This document shows positions 1,254-20,861 of a DNA stretch of 21,608 bases, piece after piece. Position 1 is the first letter of the stretch. Every line of letters begins with the position of its first letter. The notes under the pieces are model-generated. The model did not search any database, was not told where the DNA came from, and saw only the letters and a list, made by a program, of their open reading frames with translations. Source of the stretch: a virus. The stretch spans positions 1-21,608 of the IMG/VR virus record IMGVR_UViG_3300046810_000241. One strand, written 5' to 3'. The position numbers were made by a program, and so were the translations under genes.

Positions 1254-2590
1254 CAGGCCAAGCCTCCAATTCGGCGTGTTCCGCCTGTGCGTTTGATGCA
1301 CGGCCACTCAACGTCGATGCAATACCCGATCGCCGTGGTGATGTGCTGGTAGTCGTTTTTCTGGTCTTCCTGGAAGGTCGAACCCATTTGGAGCTGAACC
1401 GTGCTCAGCCCCTTGTGGCACCAGGGAGCGGTAGCCGGGTTGATGAATAAGCTGGTTTCTCCTGACGCTGTCAGGATCTTCGCACGCACGGCGTTCTGCC
1501 GATCCTTGATGGATGGGTGAGCAGGCTTGACCTTGCGCGTATACGTCCAGCCATTGGCCTTCAGCACGCTCTCGATGTCGGTGTAGTCAGATGCGTGACC
1601 ATGCTTCTCGCCCGCCTTGCCCGCCGGGTCACCGTAGATCAGCACATGCTTGTTCTTGTGGTCCTTGAACTTGTCCACGAACTCAGCAGCCGACTGCTTC
1701 GAAACCGCGCTGATCAGCACGATCTCATCAAGCAGATAGAGGTCCTTGCCGTCGTTTCGCCGGACACCGATCGCGGATGACAGAGGCGTGAAGTTCTGGT
1801 CGTGCATCCACATCAGCTGCTCGTGCGGCTCAATGGCTGCATCCGTGGTGTTCGCCTTGCTGTAGTCCTCGTAGATACGGCCAGACGCCGTTTCGAACGA
1901 TGCTTCAAATTCCTGCTTGAATTGCTTGGCGGACATAGCCCGCTTCATTGCATCCATTACGTCTGCCGGAAGAATCTCGGCCGATTTCCAATGGAACACC
2001 CGGAAGTTGGGGTCATTGCCCGACTCCGCCTGCATGCACAGGTCGTAATAGTGGTTCAGGCCGTCCGGCACGCCGAGCAACCAGCACCAGGCCCGGTAAT
2101 CCGGCATGGTCGGGTTGACGGTGTTCAGCGCCGGGAGAATGTTTGCCTCCCAGGCATCCGGCTTGATGTCGGCAAACTCGTCGATGCCGCCACCAGTCCA
2201 CGGGATACCCTCGATCCGCTGCGGTTTATCCAGGCCAATGACGTGAATCTCGCTGCCATTGTCCAGATAGATGATCAGGTCCGACTCGGACGGCCGGCGG
2301 CTGTGCATGCAGCACAGCGTGAAGGCCTTGAGGTCATCCCAGAAGATCTTCTTGGCCTGGGCGTGCGTTGGTGCGGCGGCGAAGTACATGCCGCTGTACG
2401 CCGATGCCTGCTTCACCACGAAGCGCTTGAAACGCTCGGTCTTGCCGCTACGACGACCAGCAGGCACCAGCGGGAAGCGAATGCCTTCAGACACAGCGGC
2501 CACCAAGGCGAGCTGCACTGGGTGATCCTTTAGCGGGTACCAACGAGACAGCTGACGATCCAGCATCAGGTTGCCAGTGTTCGCGATCAT
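1253..2590 (-). CDS. terL: Terminase large subunit
   Basis: The 445-residue product is the ATPase/nuclease motor that cuts concatemeric phage DNA and packages it through the portal. A Walker A-type motif PAGRRSGKTE lies at residues 43-52. An adenine-motif-like segment AAAPTHAQAKKIFW lies at about 71-84. Walker B is GGGIDEF at 133-139, with D137 and catalytic E138. The C-terminal half has the acidic RNase H-like nuclease strands, including LYLLDEIVL and LIYGDPAG. The length is typical of the family. The start follows a GAGG ribosome site by 8 bases and overlaps the terS stop by 4 bases. The stop overlaps the portal start by 1 base. Nothing appears broken. Confidence 0.93.
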   Translation of the reverse strand: MIANTGNLMLDRQLSRWYPLKDHPVQLALVAAVSEGIRFPLVPAGRRSGKTERFKRFVVKQASAYSGMYFAAAPTHAQAKKIFWDDLKAFTLCCMHSRRPSESDLIIYLDNGSEIHVIGLDKPQRIEGIPWTGGGIDEFADIKPDAWEANILPALNTVNPTMPDYRAWCWLLGVPDGLNHYYDLCMQAESGNDPNFRVFHWKSAEILPADVMDAMKRAMSAKQFKQEFEASFETASGRIYEDYSKANTTDAAIEPHEQLMWMHDQNFTPLSSAIGVRRNDGKDLYLLDEIVLISAVSKQSAAEFVDKFKDHKNKHVLIYGDPAGKAGEKHGHASDYTDIESVLKANGWTYTRKVKPAHPSIKDRQNAVRAKILTASGETSLFINPATAPWCHKGLSTVQLQMGSTFQEDQKNDYQHITTAIGYCIDVEWPCIKRTGGTRRIGGLA

Positions 2591-3102
2591 GACGGCAGCC
2601 TCGCGATCAAATCGGCCAGCAGTTGAGCGTTGGAGTTGCCGCCGCCCTTCTCTATCAGCTTGAGCTCGGCCTTACGCTTCTCGATCTCAAGCAGTTTGAT
2701 TTCTTCATCCAGCGACTTGTCAGGCTCAACTCGGCGATTGACATAGACGTCACCCGTCTCTTTGGCTGCTTGCTCGTAAAGCTGGGCAGTCAGCGCCAGG
2801 TTGCGCATGTTCTCGGCCTTCTCGGCCAGCCGCCCAAGGCCGCGAAGTCGGTACGCGCGATTGGCAATGGGGATATCGGTTGTCTCTTCACGGAATCGCT
2901 TGCGAGCAGCGTGGAACAGGTTCACCCAGGTCTTGCCGAGCTTCTGCCCGGCAAACTTTGTCGGGTCGTGCGTTTCGCATTGCTGGCGAGTGATCTCGAT
3001 CCCGAATTCTGTCTTGACCGCCGCTACCACCTGGGAAGGTGTATCGAAGCAGGCCAATGCCTGAACGATAAAGGCTTTGACCTCGCTTCGTAGTACTGCC
3101 AT
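2587..3102 (-). CDS. terS: Terminase small subunit, DUF2280 family
   Basis: The 171-residue product resembles the DUF2280 family, found next to terL in Pseudomonas and other phages and taken as the DNA-recognition subunit of the terminase. The N-terminal half (KAFIVQALACFDTPSQVVAA, then ITRQQCETHDPTK) looks like a helix-turn-helix that would read the pac or cos site. The middle (IANRAYRLRGLGRLAEKAE) and the charged C-terminal helix (EEIKLLEIEKRKAELKLIEK) suggest an oligomerising coiled coil. I chose the ATG at 3102. An in-frame TTG at 3120 would add six residues, but its only ribosome-site match is too close to it. The gene overlaps terL by 4 bases. Confidence 0.85.
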   Translation of the reverse strand: MAVLRSEVKAFIVQALACFDTPSQVVAAVKTEFGIEITRQQCETHDPTKFAGQKLGKTWVNLFHAARKRFREETTDIPIANRAYRLRGLGRLAEKAENMRNLALTAQLYEQAAKETGDVYVNRRVEPDKSLDEEIKLLEIEKRKAELKLIEKGGGNSNAQLLADLIARLPS

Positions 3103-3134
3103 AGGGTTGTCATCCGTCAATACCTGTCATGGAA

Positions 3135-3758
3135 TCAGGCCGACTTGAGCAGACAGGTTCCGCAGGCCCTCGCAATGTTCAATTTCCCCACCTCAGCAGG
3201 ACTGTTTGCTGCATCCACCAACGCTTGAACGTCAGGGCTTGCACCGTACCGGCGGACGACGCCGACGAACTCTTCGACGTCGTGGCCGCGCATCTCAAGC
3301 TTAGGCGCGCCCTCCTTGTTGAAGGCTGGCTGGCCGTACTTATCGTTGGCGTGTGCGATGTGATAAAGCTCGTGCTCTACCAGCGCGCAGAAGTCGGTGT
3401 CGCTGCACTGGGCGCAGTAGTCAGCAGCCAAGGTGATGATGAAGGCCGGCACATCGCCGAACCAATCACGCATCTGTTGTTCCATTCGAGCCTTCTGCCA
3501 ACCGCCGGCGCGGAAAGCCACTTGCTCGGCCTGGCCCAGGACTGTGCGGCCCTGCTTGTTGAAGCTCGACGACGCCCACATGACCCGGATGTCTGCATCC
3601 AGTAGGTGGGCATGGTCTTCGTTGTGAATGCTGCCGGTGCTGGCAAGGATCTCGGCTTGGAGCCATTCCCATACTTCAGGGGCTGGAGTCAGGCGGATAC
3701 CGAAGTCGGAGAGGTCGGACAGATCAGGCAGGGATGTTGGAGGACATGGCCTGTTCAT
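3135..3758 (-). CDS. Putative phage metallopeptidase
   Basis: The 207-residue product carries a zinc-binding HELYH motif at residues 129-133 (HExxH form) in the context CALVEHELYHIAHA. A conserved-looking MRGHDVEEF follows at 156-164 and could supply the third ligand or a structural element. This matches the putative phage metallopeptidase domain often found beside terminase genes. Its substrate is unknown. No signal peptide is visible, so it should act in the cytoplasm or on the virion. The start has a GGAG ribosome site 6 bases upstream. The gene lies 32 bases upstream of terS in the same direction, so it is probably cotranscribed with the packaging genes. The family is well supported; the function is inferred. 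Confidence 0.8.
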   Translation of the reverse strand: MNRPCPPTSLPDLSDLSDFGIRLTPAPEVWEWLQAEILASTGSIHNEDHAHLLDADIRVMWASSSFNKQGRTVLGQAEQVAFRAGGWQKARMEQQMRDWFGDVPAFIITLAADYCAQCSDTDFCALVEHELYHIAHANDKYGQPAFNKEGAPKLEMRGHDVEEFVGVVRRYGASPDVQALVDAANSPAEVGKLNIARACGTCLLKSA

Positions 3759-5939: not shown

Positions 5940-6617
5940 TTATGCCGCCTCTTGATCTTTTTCCGCGTGGATCACCTGCCATAGTGGTTGTTGAGCCTGA
6001 ATATCCACTTCCTTGATCACTTCTTTCAGGGATTGCCACAGGTCGAGCCAGTCACGCGTCCAGTTCTTCGGATCGATGGTGACGCCAAAGAATGTCAGCA
6101 TCTCAGCCGCAACACGGGCAGGCCCCCACTCTGCCGATCCGGCTACCTCCCCCTTGTACGATTGCAGGGCCAGAGTCACCAGGTACTGCGCCTTAACGCG
6201 CTTGGCTGATGTCAGGTCAGGCAGCGCCGCCTTGGCGGTGATCAGCAACACCGCGTTCAACAGGTGCCGCATGTTCATCGCCGGGTGGTACAGGTAGTGC
6301 CCGAACTGCTGCACCTGGAACGGCAAGGTGTCGATGGCGCGCAGTACCTTGCCGATGGTGGCCAGGTGCGCGGCGCGGGCGGTGGAGCGGCCAGCGGGCG
6401 TTCCGCGCGTCTCGCTGATGCTGATCTTCTGGCGCACAACCTGAATGCGCTCCTCCTTGTCTTCCCCCAGTGCAGCGAACACGGCCTCGGCGCGGCGCAT
6501 GCGCTGCCCCCTCTTGATCGGTGCCGATTGCGCCTTGTCGATGGCCACAGCGCTGATCGACGCGTTCGATTCGTGCTGAGCCTCAGTCCACACCTGCCTT
6601 GCGTTGATCAGTTTCAT
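5940..6617 (-). CDS. Q-position protein, putative late antiterminator
   Basis: The 225-residue product starts MKLINARQVWTEAQHESNAS. It has a basic segment near residues 33-48 (APIKRGQRMRRAEAVF) and another near 70-86 (ETRGTPAGRSTARAAH). A C-terminal half rich in aromatic and leucine residues ends WQVIHAEKDQEAA. It is the last gene of the early operon, directly after ninG (4-base overlap) and directly before a pR'-like promoter and two terminators. That is exactly where lambdoid phages encode Q. Similar Pseudomonas phage proteins have been labelled antitermination proteins, but I see no diagnostic motif, so the function rests on position. The frame stays open upstream into ninG; the coupled ATG at 6617 is the sensible start. 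Confidence 0.62.
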   Translation of the reverse strand: MKLINARQVWTEAQHESNASISAVAIDKAQSAPIKRGQRMRRAEAVFAALGEDKEERIQVVRQKISISETRGTPAGRSTARAAHLATIGKVLRAIDTLPFQVQQFGHYLYHPAMNMRHLLNAVLLITAKAALPDLTSAKRVKAQYLVTLALQSYKGEVAGSAEWGPARVAAEMLTFFGVTIDPKNWTRDWLDLWQSLKEVIKEVDIQAQQPLWQVIHAEKDQEAA

Positions 6618-7219
6618 GCTGCGAGCCCCTTTTTCAGTTCTTTGGCCATTGCCCGGTATTTGGCCTTGATGGCCTTGATCTCTTCCACGGTGTACTTGCA
6701 GGGCGGGTGCAGGCCTTCCAGCCAGGCCACCTTCTCGGCGCCGATGCGCTGAACCAGGCGAATGCGGTACTCCACGGCGTTGCCGGACAGGTTGCGGTTG
6801 CACTTCACACACTGGCGGTGGATGTTCAGCGGCTCGAAGCGCAGCTCCGGGCAGGCGCCAACGGATCGGTAATGCCCAGCGTCCCAGCGGCTGCCGGTCA
6901 TGAGGTCGTTGTCGTTCGGCATCGAGTCGCAGCTGATGCACGGCAGGTGCGCGTCCCGCAGGCGCACGTACTCGTTCACCGCCGCCTGGGCTTCGCGCAG
7001 GTGATCCGCCCTACTCTTCAGCTTCTCCTTGCGGACCTTGATGTCCCTGCGCTCGATATCGGCCAGGGCCTTGCGGGCCTTCGGCTCATGCCTGGGCGCA
7101 TCGATCATTGCGCATGCCGGGCTGCATACCGCCTGGCCCATCCGCGAAGGGACGAATAAGGCCCTGCACGTAGCAACGAGGCATTTCTTCGGCTTGGCCG
7201 GCTTCCGCTCGATGGTCAT
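6614..7219 (-). CDS. ninG: Recombination protein NinG (Rap)
   Basis: The 201-residue product matches the NinG/Rap family, a structure-specific endonuclease that acts on recombination intermediates in lambdoid phages. The N-terminal zinc-binding cysteines are C13, C18, C32 and C36. A long charged helix spans about residues 50-90. The C-terminal nuclease-like region has DAGHYRS, LRFEPLNIHRQCVKCN and LSGN, patterns shared with lambda NinG. The length is close to the lambda protein. The gene overlaps the genes on both sides by 4 bases and sits in the nin region, as in lambda. Confidence 0.92.
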   Translation of the reverse strand: MTIERKPAKPKKCLVATCRALFVPSRMGQAVCSPACAMIDAPRHEPKARKALADIERRDIKVRKEKLKSRADHLREAQAAVNEYVRLRDAHLPCISCDSMPNDNDLMTGSRWDAGHYRSVGACPELRFEPLNIHRQCVKCNRNLSGNAVEYRIRLVQRIGAEKVAWLEGLHPPCKYTVEEIKAIKAKYRAMAKELKKGLAA

Positions 7220-7485
7220 ACAGCCTCCTTGGCTTTCTGCTTCTCATGGGTGAAGTCGCCGCGAAGGGGCATCAGCTCACCGTCTTCATACAGACTGCAT
7301 TGGGGGGCATTGGGGTGAATCACAAACCAGCCGTTCGCATCAGCTGTCGATGCCTGGTCATCCCATGTGAAACACGGGGCGCCCTTGAGAATCCGCGAAT
7401 CAATAGTGACCACGCTGTATGCGGGGATGTCATCGTCATCAACCAGAGTGAGTGCCAGATCGCCCGGCTTGAAGTTATGGATCAT
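7216..7485 (-). CDS. Hypothetical nin-region protein, 89 aa
   Basis: The 89-residue product starts MIHNFKPGDLALTLVDDDDI. It looks like a small beta-rich fold (LALTLVDDDDIPAYSVVTID, then WFVIHPNAP) ending in a basic helix (THEKQKAKEAV). I do not recognise it. It is coupled by 4-base overlaps to ninB upstream and ninG downstream, so it is certainly part of the same transcript. A recombination role is suggested only by its neighbours. Confidence 0.72.
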   Translation of the reverse strand: MIHNFKPGDLALTLVDDDDIPAYSVVTIDSRILKGAPCFTWDDQASTADANGWFVIHPNAPQCSLYEDGELMPLRGDFTHEKQKAKEAV

Positions 7486-7952
7486 GCGGCCTCCTGGCTA
7501 AGCAGGTCAGAGAAGTACACGCCCTGCGGAGCAAAGCGCGCGACGATGCGGTCGGTGTAAGCGATGCCCTGGGCTCGATTGAACAGGCTGGTAACCGGGA
7601 ATCCGTCCGGTCCGAACAGGTGGCACTCGCCCATCATGTCCAGCTTGGTTTCGTACGGGAGGTGACGCATCACCCGGTACCACTCAGCCTGGAACCCGGC
7701 GTCATCGTTCAGCAGGATCTGCACGCCGACGTGCAACTTGCAGTACTTGCGCGCCTCGGCCGGGTCGCCCAACTGGGTCATCTCGGCGATGCGCTTGTAC
7801 ATCGAAAACCACAAACGGTTCTGGTCCAGGGTTCGGTCCTTGCCCGGGCGCAGGGAGACAACCACGAAGTGCTTGTCCTCGAACATCTTGGACATGCGGG
7901 TGATGGCCTCGGTGAGCATGGAGCGGCAGTTGACGCTGATCTTGTCAGTCAT
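7482..7952 (-). CDS. ninB: Recombination mediator NinB (Orf family)
   Basis: The 156-residue product resembles lambda NinB/Orf (146 aa), which binds single-stranded DNA and helps load the phage annealing protein onto SSB-coated DNA. Family-like signatures are KDRTLDQNRLWFSMYKRIAE at about residues 38-57, EARKYCKLHVGVQILL at about 66-81 and FNRAQGIAYTDRIVARF near the C-terminus. It overlaps the preceding gene by 8 bases and the next by 4. Together with ninG here, and the ERF annealase and exonuclease on the other arm, the phage carries a full recombination set. Confidence 0.92.
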   Translation of the reverse strand: MTDKISVNCRSMLTEAITRMSKMFEDKHFVVVSLRPGKDRTLDQNRLWFSMYKRIAEMTQLGDPAEARKYCKLHVGVQILLNDDAGFQAEWYRVMRHLPYETKLDMMGECHLFGPDGFPVTSLFNRAQGIAYTDRIVARFAPQGVYFSDLLSQEAA

Positions 7953-9401: not shown

Positions 9402-9670
9402 GTCCGCTTCTCCGCTGCTTCTGCGATCAATGCCATGCGCTCCGACTTGCGGGCCTGGAGCCACGCCTCTGACATGCGATCTTTCTCGCCGCCCTTGTCG
9501 ACCCACTCCCACACCGGACGGCCGTTGCTGACCATGTAGGCCCGGTACATCTGGCTGTACTGCTGCTGGCGGATTTGCTGGACGCCACGGCCCTTCAGGA
9601 AGCGCTCGTCCCCGGCCTGCGGCTTTGGCTTGGTCTGTGCGGTGCTGTATCGAATGCTGGTTACGGTCAT
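9398..9670 (-). CDS. Hypothetical phage protein, 90 aa
   Basis: The 90-residue product starts MTVTSIRYSTAQTKPKPQAG. The centre, RGVQQIRQQQYSQMYRAYMV followed by GRPVWEWVDKGG, resembles small proteins found next to the P-like replication gene in Pseudomonas phages. I know of no assigned function. The ATG at 9670 overlaps the P-like stop by 4 bases. A longer in-frame ATG at 9691 would overlap it by 25 bases and is less likely. The protein is basic and could bind nucleic acid. Confidence 0.7.
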   Translation of the reverse strand: MTVTSIRYSTAQTKPKPQAGDERFLKGRGVQQIRQQQYSQMYRAYMVSNGRPVWEWVDKGGEKDRMSEAWLQARKSERMALIAEAAEKRT

Positions 9671-10395
9671 GTCCGTTTCTCCGCGCCGCACACCGGCTCG
9701 CGCTTGATGTTCATTTTTGCCAGCAGCAACTCGCGGGCGGATTTGCCGTCGGCCGGTATGCCTTGCTGAAGGATTCGTGCTTGGGTTTGCTGGTCTGCCA
9801 GCTCGTTGGCTAGTTCAAATTCAGTCTTCTGGCTGTCGCGGCCTATGCCAGCGGCAATCCGGCCGTCGAGTGGCTGCCCGGCCTGAGCCCGACGAAGGAT
9901 GATTTCGTAGTTGCGGTCGAACCGCGCCCGCAAGCCCTTGTCTTCCTGGCGCGCGCCGCGCAGATCGAAAAGACCGGTAGCCTCGGCGGCGAGCTTCACC
10001 GCTTCGTGGCTGTAAGTGGTCATCAGCGCTTCGATCCAGGCGTCACGAGCAGCCGGCATTCCGAAATCTTCCGGGCTGGGCACGCACATGGCGATGAACT
10101 CACCAACGCTCGGCGCGAAAGGCTTCTTGAGCTTGCGGCACTTCTGGATACCGAACTCGATCTGCTCCAGCGTGCGGATGCCCTCGTCTGCGAATTCCTT
10201 GATCCATTCGGCCTTGGCAGCGTCGAGCGCTTCGGTAGACGGCCACGCCTGGCGCCATGCAGGGAAGATCCCGCGCAGCCGGCGGAACAAGTCGTTAACC
10301 ACTTCGACCGTCTGCGGCGTGATGTCGAGCGGCTGGACATGGCTTTCCGCAGGCAGGTTGCCCATGGTTGCCATCAGCTGGTTGACTGGCTTCAT
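9667..10395 (-). CDS. Replication protein P (helicase loader family)
   Basis: The 242-residue product resembles the lambda P family (P is 233 aa), which recruits host DnaB helicase to the phage origin. Family-like segments are VVNDLFRRLRGIFPAWRQAW at about residues 32-51, EWIKEFADEGI at 63-73, and QKCRKLKKPFAPSVGEFIAM at about 84-103. The C-terminal third is helical and charged. It overlaps the upstream O-like gene by 4 bases, giving the O-P order of lambda. The length and segments look complete. Confidence 0.9.
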   Translation of the reverse strand: MKPVNQLMATMGNLPAESHVQPLDITPQTVEVVNDLFRRLRGIFPAWRQAWPSTEALDAAKAEWIKEFADEGIRTLEQIEFGIQKCRKLKKPFAPSVGEFIAMCVPSPEDFGMPAARDAWIEALMTTYSHEAVKLAAEATGLFDLRGARQEDKGLRARFDRNYEIILRRAQAGQPLDGRIAAGIGRDSQKTEFELANELADQQTQARILQQGIPADGKSARELLLAKMNIKREPVCGAEKRT

Positions 10396-11186
10396 GGGCG
10401 AGCCACAAGGCCGTCAGCCCAAGCGTTGCTGTTGAAGTCTGGTTCGCCGGACTGAGGGCGCGGCGTGAACTGGTGGACGTTGCTACCGGCCGGCGCCGGA
10501 TCTGGCACTTCGTCTTCCCAGCGCTTGCCGTTGATCCATGTCGATGGGTGCGGGATGAACCGGCCGTCGTCCTTGATCCAGTCTGTTGTGAGGCACTGCG
10601 TACCCAGGGCCTGAACCAAAGAATCGAAAAGCTCGTTGGTCAGCTTGAGCTTGTCCCACGCCTTGCGTGCAGCCTCCTTGCCCACCTTGCGTGGATACAG
10701 GGCCCAGAACCGCGCGAACAACTCAGCGTGATCGACCTCATCTTCGCCATAAGGCTTTTGTTCTTTATCTTCTCTTCTCTTCTCTTCTCTGGTCCGCAAT
10801 TTGTCCGCATCACTGGCGGACGCACTGCGGACACTCTTCGCCTTCCTGTCGTTGCGCTTGCGCTCGTTATCGTTGGCGCGGCGCTTAGCGCTGGCCCCGT
10901 TATGCTCTTCAAAGCGAGGCATTACGAGGCTTCCGTCGTCTTGGATGCCCGCCCACTCCACATCAATCATGGCTTGTGTAAAGCCTGGCCAGCCCACCAC
11001 CGCATCCATCGCGTCGACGGTGTAGCCCACCAGCACACCATCATCACAATGGGTGTCGAAGATGCTCCAAGCGATGTGCAGTCCGCCGATGATCCGCAAC
11101 CTGTCCGCTTTCAATGCGGACACCATGCGGAATACTTTCGGATGCGTCTGAAGGTCGATGCGCATTTTTATCCAATCTCCGGCCAT
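10392..11186 (-). CDS. O-like replication initiator (replisome organizer)
   Basis: The 264-residue product has an N-terminal winged-helix-like domain (residues 1-95) starting MAGDWIKMRIDLQTHPKVFR. A highly charged linker follows (about 96-148, with a RTREEKRREDKEQK stretch). The C-terminal domain (about 150-225) has ELFARFWALYPRKVGKEAAR and FIPHPSTWINGKRWEDE, typical of phage replisome organizers. By position it is the counterpart of lambda O: it should bind the origin and bring in P and DnaB. The gene contains two clusters of phased repeats, at 11081-11131 and 10792-10832, and a TTCTC tract, so the origin is probably inside it. Its ATG overlaps the antirepressor stop by one base (TAATG). Confidence 0.85.
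   Translation of the reverse strand: MAGDWIKMRIDLQTHPKVFRMVSALKADRLRIIGGLHIAWSIFDTHCDDGVLVGYTVDAMDAVVGWPGFTQAMIDVEWAGIQDDGSLVMPRFEEHNGASAKRRANDNERKRNDRKAKSVRSASASDADKLRTREEKRREDKEQKPYGEDEVDHAELFARFWALYPRKVGKEAARKAWDKLKLTNELFDSLVQALGTQCLTTDWIKDDGRFIPHPSTWINGKRWEDEVPDPAPAGSNVHQFTPRPQSGEPDFNSNAWADGLVARP
10741..10790. repeat. AT-rich and polypyrimidine tract beside iteron cluster 1 (possible unwinding element)
   Basis: On the plus strand this holds an A/T-rich stretch (to about 10768) followed by five repeats of TTCTC ending at 10790. It is therefore a homopyrimidine/homopurine mirror-type tract. It touches iteron cluster 1 at 10792. In lambda the origin iterons in O are followed by an A/T-rich, purine-asymmetric stretch where the helix opens, and this fits that role. 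It encodes the charged KRREDKEQK linker. Confidence 0.5.
10792..10832. repeat. Iteron cluster 1 inside the O-like gene
   Basis: Four copies of a TCCGC core are present: forward at 10793 and 10804, inverted (GCGGA) at 10816 and 10827. The start-to-start spacings are 11, 12 and 11 bp. The fuller motif is GTCCGCA, perfect in three copies. The spacing is not a multiple of 3, so codon repetition alone does not produce it. Phased iterons in an initiator gene are the hallmark of lambda-type origins. Confidence 0.65.
11081..11131. repeat. Iteron cluster 2 inside the O-like gene
   Basis: Five TCCGC cores are present: forward at 11082, 11093 and 11104, inverted (GCGGA) at 11116 and 11127. The spacings are 11, 11, 12 and 11 bp. 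The last four sit exactly 300 bp from the four cores of cluster 1, with the same orientation pattern. The spacers between cores differ from those of cluster 1. The cluster lies in codons for the winged-helix domain, so coding constraint contributes to some identity. Confidence 0.6.
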
Positions 11187-19475: not shown

Positions 19476-20237
19476 ATGAACACAGACATCATCATGCCGG
19501 AAGAGCGCCATCAGGCCGTCGCGATCCATCAGCAGGGGCAAGAGATCAGCATGTTATCGACGATCAGTCGACTTGCCCTAGACCCTCGCTGCGACATGGA
19601 CAAGCTGGAGCGCCTGATCAGTCTTCAGGATCGCATGGAAGCCAAAACCGCTCTCGAGGCCTTCAACGCTGCCTTCGCTGAAATGCAGTGCGAAATGCCC
19701 TCTGTTGAGAAGCGCACCGAGAACACGCACACGAAGAAGATGTACGCCGATCTGGACGACATCAACTACGCAGTCCGCCCGATCATGGCCAAGTTCGGAT
19801 TTGGCGTGTCGTTCAAGATCGTCAACCAGGCCGCCGGCGTCAGCATTACCGGAATCCTGATGCACAAGGGCGGGCACCGAGAAGAAACGACCATGATCCT
19901 GCCGCTTGATACCGGTGCAGGACGCAGCGCTGTGCAGTCGGTTGGCTCGACCACCACCTACGGCAAGCGCTATGTCATGTGCGCCCTACTCAACATCACC
20001 AGCGGCGATGACAACGACAATGACGGCTACGTCGAACCATCCGATCAACTGGTCACGCCCGCCCAAGCAAGGCAGGTTCAAGCGCTGCTGGATAAGTGCA
20101 GCGAGGCTGTTCACGCCAACTTCGAAAAGATGTACGGCGACCCCGGGCAGATCGCGAAGTCAGCGTTTGACGGCGTGGTTGCGGGGCTGAACAACTCAAT
20201 CTCGAAAGCGGCCAAGGCCGCGCAGCAAGCGGGGTAA
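19476..20237 (+). CDS. erf: ERF-family single-strand annealing protein
   Basis: The 253-residue product matches the ERF superfamily of phage annealing proteins, which pair single strands during phage recombination and circularisation. Signatures are TKKMYADLDDINYAVRPIMA at about residues 86-105, then FGVSFKIV, MILPLDTGAGRSAVQSVGST and TTYGKRYVMCALLNI at about 160-175. The C-terminal part (residues 195-253) is variable. It follows the coiled-coil gene by 7 bases and precedes the exonuclease by 6, forming an annealase-exonuclease pair. GAGG precedes the ATG. Confidence 0.93.
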   Translation: MNTDIIMPEERHQAVAIHQQGQEISMLSTISRLALDPRCDMDKLERLISLQDRMEAKTALEAFNAAFAEMQCEMPSVEKRTENTHTKKMYADLDDINYAVRPIMAKFGFGVSFKIVNQAAGVSITGILMHKGGHREETTMILPLDTGAGRSAVQSVGSTTTYGKRYVMCALLNITSGDDNDNDGYVEPSDQLVTPAQARQVQALLDKCSEAVHANFEKMYGDPGQIAKSAFDGVVAGLNNSISKAAKAAQQAG

Positions 20238-20243
20238 ACGGAC

Positions 20244-20861
20244 ATGCAGATCATCACTGAGGTAGAACAGGGTTCACCGGAATGGTTGGCCCTGCGCCTG
20301 GGTATAGTCACCTGCTCCGAGCTGGAATGCCTGCTCACCAACGGTAAGGGCGAAGCCGGGTTCGGCGTTGGCGCTTTCACCTACATGAACACGCTGATCG
20401 GTGAGCGCATCACTGGCGAGGCTGCTGACCCGTTCACGGGCAACCGGCACACTGAGCGCGGTCACGAGCTGGAAGGCATCGCCCGCAAGCTATACGAGCA
20501 GCGCGAGGAAGTCGAAACCAACCAGGTGGCGATCATCCTGAACCACGGCGCTGGCTATTCGCCTGACTCCCTGGTGGGCAAGCACGGCTTGACGGAAATC
20601 AAAACCAAACTGCCGAAATTCCAGGTCGAGGTAATCCTGTCCGGCGAGATTCCAAAAGAACACGTCGCCCAGTGCCAGGGCGGCCTGTGGATTTCTGAGC
20701 GTGAGTGGATCGACTTTGTTTGCTACTGGCCAGGTATGCCTCTGTTCATCAAGCGCGCATACCGCGACGAAGCGATGATCCGCAAGCTGTCGGAGCGGGT
20801 GCGCACCTTCTACGAAATCTTAGATGACCGCATGAATCGGGTCTTGGGGATCGCAGCATGA
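20244..20861 (+). CDS. YqaJ/lambda-type exonuclease
   Basis: The 205-residue product is a PD-(D/E)xK exonuclease of the YqaJ/lambda Exo family, which resects double-stranded ends to supply single strands for the ERF protein. The motifs are QGSPEWLALRLG near residues 9-20, RGHELEGIAR at about 72-81 with E75, SPDSLVG with D108, and the catalytic EIK (E118, K120) in GLTEIKTK. A conserved QCQGGLWIS follows at about 163-171. All catalytic residues appear intact. It overlaps the next gene by 4 bases. Confidence 0.92.
   Translation: MQIITEVEQGSPEWLALRLGIVTCSELECLLTNGKGEAGFGVGAFTYMNTLIGERITGEAADPFTGNRHTERGHELEGIARKLYEQREEVETNQVAIILNHGAGYSPDSLVGKHGLTEIKTKLPKFQVEVILSGEIPKEHVAQCQGGLWISEREWIDFVCYWPGMPLFIKRAYRDEAMIRKLSERVRTFYEILDDRMNRVLGIAA

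Follow-up and report, generated by a model that had tools for sequence, protein, structure and literature searches.

The stretch of DNA analysed, hereafter the window, comprises 21,608 nucleotides and is a viral contig, apparently from a Pseudomonas-type phage, an assignment based on near-identical genes in Pseudomonas genomes. The gene of an O-like initiator (10392–11186, minus strand, 264 aa; PHROG 9474, 6e-86; PHROG 2509, replication initiation protein) is overlapped at its end by the gene of a lambda P-like helicase loader (9667–10395, minus strand; PF06992, 3.3e-30; PHROG 109). Upstream of the initiator gene, a Bro-N antirepressor, a CII-like activator and a divergent CI-type repressor are encoded in what is a lambda-like control region. 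Homologues of the NinG/Rap endonuclease and of the NinB/Orf recombination mediator are found downstream of the replication genes (6617–7952, minus strand), an arrangement shared with lambdoid phages. Elsewhere in the window, a terminase large subunit and proteins of PHROG 546 and PHROG 513, the latter labelled 'transposase', are coded in a row (1256–3758, minus strand), and an Erf-like annealing protein is followed by a RecE-like exonuclease (19476–20858, plus strand).

The initiator has no family match in Pfam or NCBIfam. By fold it matches viral replisome-organizer, primosomal and DUF1376-type proteins; no solved structure matched its fold with E < 0.001, and a profile search of solved sequences yielded weak DnaT matches only. 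In the structure model the folded part spans residues 10–96 and is followed by a basic helix of residues 98–116 (codons at 10839–10895, minus strand; pLDDT ~70–74). This is the proposed recognition helix, in which positions 102, 106 and 110 (here R, D and K) vary with the class of the DNA boxes described below. The carboxyl-terminal part of the protein is exchangeable among relatives: the initiators of L004, L223, L229 and L418 carry there the DnaT DNA-binding domain (PF17948), which was not detected in the window's initiator.

Two clusters of short boxes lie inside the initiator gene. The linker cluster (cluster 1, 10793–10831), the proposed origin core, has boxes at 10793 and 10804 on the plus strand facing boxes at 10816 and 10827 on the minus strand. 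The N cluster (cluster 2, 11082–11131) has plus-strand boxes at 11082, 11093 and 11104 facing minus-strand boxes at 11116 and 11127, the one at 11082 being a fifth box placed one 11-bp step outside the set of four. The order in each four-box cluster is TCCGC, TCCGC, GCGGA, GCGGA, with steps of 11, 12 and 11 bp. These cores, and their spacing with two boxes facing two, had been described in an initial annotation; every core was found at the base given for it, the fifth included, and the spacing was confirmed in both clusters. The 39-bp pattern TCCGC-N6-TCCGC-N7-GCGGA-N6-GCGGA has exactly two matches in the window (10793–10831 and 11093–11131) and none in 100 dinucleotide-preserving shuffles of it.

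The linker cluster abuts a tract of 23 bases (10768–10790, minus strand; TCTTCTCTTCTCTTCTCTTCTCT) that reads on the gene strand as a purine tract, AGAGAAGAGAAGAGAAGAGAAGA, of the form (GAGAA)n. It is the sole pure purine/pyrimidine run of 15 bases or more in the whole window, and the TTCTC polypyrimidine tract formerly noticed next to cluster 1 is thus real. The least stable 40 bp of the gene according to nearest-neighbour stability (10749–10788) define a candidate DNA unwinding element; 0.22% of the window segments are as unstable. What adjoins cluster 1 is a purine tract, not a plainly AT-rich one; its segment is only moderately AT-rich (40% GC at 10742–10791), which counts against an origin at this place. 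The tract occurs behind several box classes in relatives, and the reading frame of its DNA is 0 in 89 of them, 2 in 18 and 1 in 2. Its region is likely an unwinding element, at which the DNA would melt.

The layout is widespread. A scan of viral contigs by DNA pattern alone found at least 120 stretches with at least 163 clusters; among the matches listed, 162 of 163 clusters are inside an ORF related to the window's initiator and the remaining one is at a locus edge. When the central gap was freed to 0–30 bases, 105 of the 120 stretches listed were already known from the gap of 7 bases; the 15 new ones include several simple palindromic repeats. In L210, L216 and L218, facing pairs of TCCGC boxes are separated by a central gap of 6 bases, not 7. 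Of 138 spacings between TCCGC-class boxes that point in the same direction, 134 are of 11 bp. Both clusters are found in phiPSA1, 300 bp apart and one of them with a degenerate outer box, and in epsilon15 and SPN1S, 279 bp apart. The exact 300-bp offset noted at the outset is true in the window but not general, the dyad-to-dyad distance being 276–342 bp in TCCGC-class relatives (279 and 300 are commonest) and 189–231 in the TAACG class. A fixed 300-bp rule was rejected on this ground, the distance being lineage-specific, and no common helical phase between the clusters is apparent by eye.

Some phages depart further from the window. MT839586 is without TCCGC clusters and belongs to the TAACG class instead. 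In Aurca01, whose initiator has an unrelated amino-terminal part, neither a TCCGC cluster nor any significant four-box cluster was found. The initiator of psageK9 (L237, 1036–1830) combines an unrelated amino-terminal part with a carboxyl-terminal part resembling that of the window's initiator, and has GTGCAC boxes at 11-bp steps at the equivalent place in its gene, without purine tract; 3 of 300 codon shuffles gave equally good boxes. The layout was not found described in the literature searched, which is weak evidence of novelty as subscription journals were mostly outside its coverage.

Both window clusters encode a SA..AD.LR peptide, and the initial annotation cautioned that an old in-frame duplication, or constraint on the protein, might be the cause of their likeness. 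The linker cluster, however, has a score of 36, which none of 300 codon shuffles that preserve protein and codon usage could equal (mean 24.4, maximum 33), and the best cluster also beat all 300 shuffles in most of 57 non-redundant relatives. This set and the first codon-column test contain sequences picked by DNA pattern, a bias favouring the clusters, and the column test was therefore repeated on 40 relatives that had been collected through protein similarity. The fraction of relatives using the same codon is 0.80 in the N cluster, 0.81 in the linker cluster and 0.985 in the tract, as compared to 0.46 in the rest of the gene (p of 2e-4, 1e-3 and 1e-5, respectively, values that are indicative since neither columns nor relatives are independent). 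The cores and their spacing thus outlast synonymous change in the alignment of homologues, the check that had been suggested. In L124, L070 and their kin the linker cluster is located at offset 342 of the gene, where its frame differs from that at 334 or 355, and encodes another peptide. This contradicts the caution, because the same linker DNA is read there in a different frame. Duplication or protein constraint, opposed also by the frame-shifted copies of the tract, was rejected and its probability is practically negligible. Codon choice fails to account for the linker cluster, its conservation is at the DNA level, and the repeated peptide is a consequence of the DNA, not its cause.

Other boxes take the place of TCCGC in relatives that retain layout and tract, namely TAACG, TCACG, TAGAC, TCCCG and TGACG, the classes with one to four members being tentative. 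A four-box search de novo revealed that GTCCGC is replaced by GTAACG, with the layout unchanged and a tract of the same kind after it, in a set of phages that includes ydaU of the Rac prophage. In a scan with the TAACG pattern, the dominant spacing (TAACG-N7-TAACG-N7-CGTTA-N6-CGTTA) accounts for 83 of 178 matches; 129 of the 178 lie in related ORFs and most others are palindromic runs. A genome scan by protein added the TCACG, TAGAC, TCCCG and TGACG classes. On a tree of the amino-terminal part (112 columns, few well-supported branches) box class switches 9 times, where shuffling gives a mean of 35, a clustering of the kind inflated by near copies.

Residues 102, 106 and 110 of the basic helix were singled out by two comparisons, one between the WDDPRV-type proteins of the two classes and one between the two main clades. 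TCCGC boxes go with an acidic residue at 106 and K110 in 82 of 82 rows and TAACG boxes with neither in 29 of 29 (111 rows in total, L431 left unscored), an association found and counted in the same data. The window, with TCCGC boxes, D106 and K110, follows the class rule; within TAACG, L417 and ctnlZ23 deviate from T106/V110. A tree built without the helix requires five switches for each of the two traits, box class and helix residues. There are five pairs of rows of unlike class whose paths on the tree are separate, the branches being well supported for two of these pairs, and five independent contrasts are too few for a sign test to reach significance. Box class thus follows the residues of helix 98–116 in the sequences compared, as an association. 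Recombination could have moved helix and linker jointly, as one block, because they are close together; the class match of the distant N cluster is not exposed to these weaknesses to the same degree.

The box classes bear on two further explanations. Conservation might act on the mRNA, the facing boxes forming a regulatory stem-loop: the window clusters fold well as RNA (z of −5.2 and −3.4) and their arms change together between classes. In many relatives, however, the arms are unequal (><<, >><, >>><), and L406, whose three boxes all point the same way, forms no hairpin (z of +1.7), for which reasons the hairpin was rejected despite its good folding in the window. A hairpin also has no need for the 11-bp spacing of same-direction boxes, nor for a box class that follows protein residues, and this explanation is very improbable. 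Alternatively, the boxes could be sites for a different protein, for example a phage repressor or antirepressor; the CI-type repressor, CII-like activator and Bro-N antirepressor encoded nearby provide candidates. Against them, the box sequence tracks the initiator's own helix in hosts from several phyla, and relatives sharing the clusters have different genes upstream, so that binding by such a protein is extremely improbable.

The N cluster is a separate, lineage-variable element, usually nearer to the gene start than the linker cluster, whose occurrence is the more general. Of the 89 TCCGC-class genes, 71 carry at least three in-phase own-class boxes in the amino-terminal part, nearly always from offset 55. 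Nearly all DKPEV-type TAACG genes have a facing pair at 149/161, while Rac has two boxes in one direction at 149 and 161 and a facing one at 173. Genes of the TCACG, TCCCG, TAGAC and TGACG classes, L437 excepted, carry own-class boxes near 138–164. Note that single facing pairs in this part are weakly significant gene by gene, and that WDDPRV genes have no amino-terminal cluster. The N cluster is probably bound by the same initiator and is a candidate looping partner, operator or reservoir. Initiators that bind their own genes often repress them, and the N cluster lies a long way from the purine tract, beginning 55 bases after the gene start; the clusters might then all be operators by which the initiator controls its own transcription, with replication starting elsewhere. 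This is unlikely, as it leaves unexplained both the invariant purine tract and least stable segment abutting the linker cluster and the greater generality of that cluster.

The clusters and tract are best read as the replication origin of a lambda-like temperate phage, placed inside its own initiator gene, with a probability of about 0.83; linker cluster and tract look like the origin core. The origin proposed in the initial annotation is thus well supported by comparison of sequences, namely by the confinement of the clusters to related ORFs, the constraint at the DNA level, the copies in other frames, the adjoining unstable tract, the layout of Rac ydaU, the helix association and the loader. 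Some relatives, nevertheless, have no loader gene beside the initiator, which counts against an origin: the gene after the initiator is P-like, DnaC-like or neither. At such an origin the initiator would bind the short boxes of the linker cluster, one DNA turn apart and two facing two, probably via its basic helix 98–116 (R102, D106, K110). Bound initiator would help to open the unstable purine tract adjoining this cluster, and the lambda P-like loader from the next gene would recruit the host helicase.

A broader proposal, tentative and as a whole somewhat doubtful, is that of a large phage group, not found described in the literature searched, whose origins share a fixed chassis of turn-spaced boxes and purine tract with specificity swapped through a few residues of the basic helix. 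These origins would be bipartite, the N cluster looping to or pairing with the origin, and oriJ would be the Rac member of the group, inside ydaU. The sequence signature would locate likely origins in numerous temperate phages and prophages that have yet to be studied, it proposes the site of E. coli oriJ, and it would offer a compact case of an initiator and its DNA sites switching specificity together.

The SV40 core origin has four short boxes, two of them facing the other two, beside a melting element; the likeness is of layout only, spacing, proteins and host being unrelated. Lambda iterons are of ~18 bp, each with internal symmetry. In the lambda origin four iterons, and in Stx phages six, form one array next to an AT-rich tract (PMC7466680). 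The window resembles these origins in the position of the boxes in the middle of the initiator coding sequence, beside an easily melted element and with a P-type loader gene next (PMC7466680). It differs from their larger iterons by boxes of 5–6 bp, 11–12 bp apart and two facing two, and from the single array and AT-rich tract by a period-5 purine tract and, usually, a second cluster near the gene start. The initial claim that the layout departs from the single lambda array is borne out by these short facing boxes in two separate clusters, and no array of ~18-bp iterons was found. The initiator likewise matches no Pfam family, that of lambda O included, and no homology to lambda O was found in the family searches. 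In Gram-negative phage-inducible chromosomal islands, an AT-rich region 3' of the rep gene has an iteron set on either side, and the initiator is of the primase type (PMC6092414); the two sets are shared with the window, whereas position and initiator type differ. The features of the window's own group, namely linker boxes of their own class at 11–12 bp steps, followed by the purine tract, and class-matching residues 106 and 110, are all present in the window. The Rac prophage, which has an active origin, oriJ (PMC3945230), carries boxes at both positions in ydaU, together with a (GAGGAA)n tract, with the differences that its boxes are of the TAACG class and that its linker set is partly degenerate. 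A placement of oriJ within ydaU was not found in the literature searched; the shared layout suggests that oriJ lies there.
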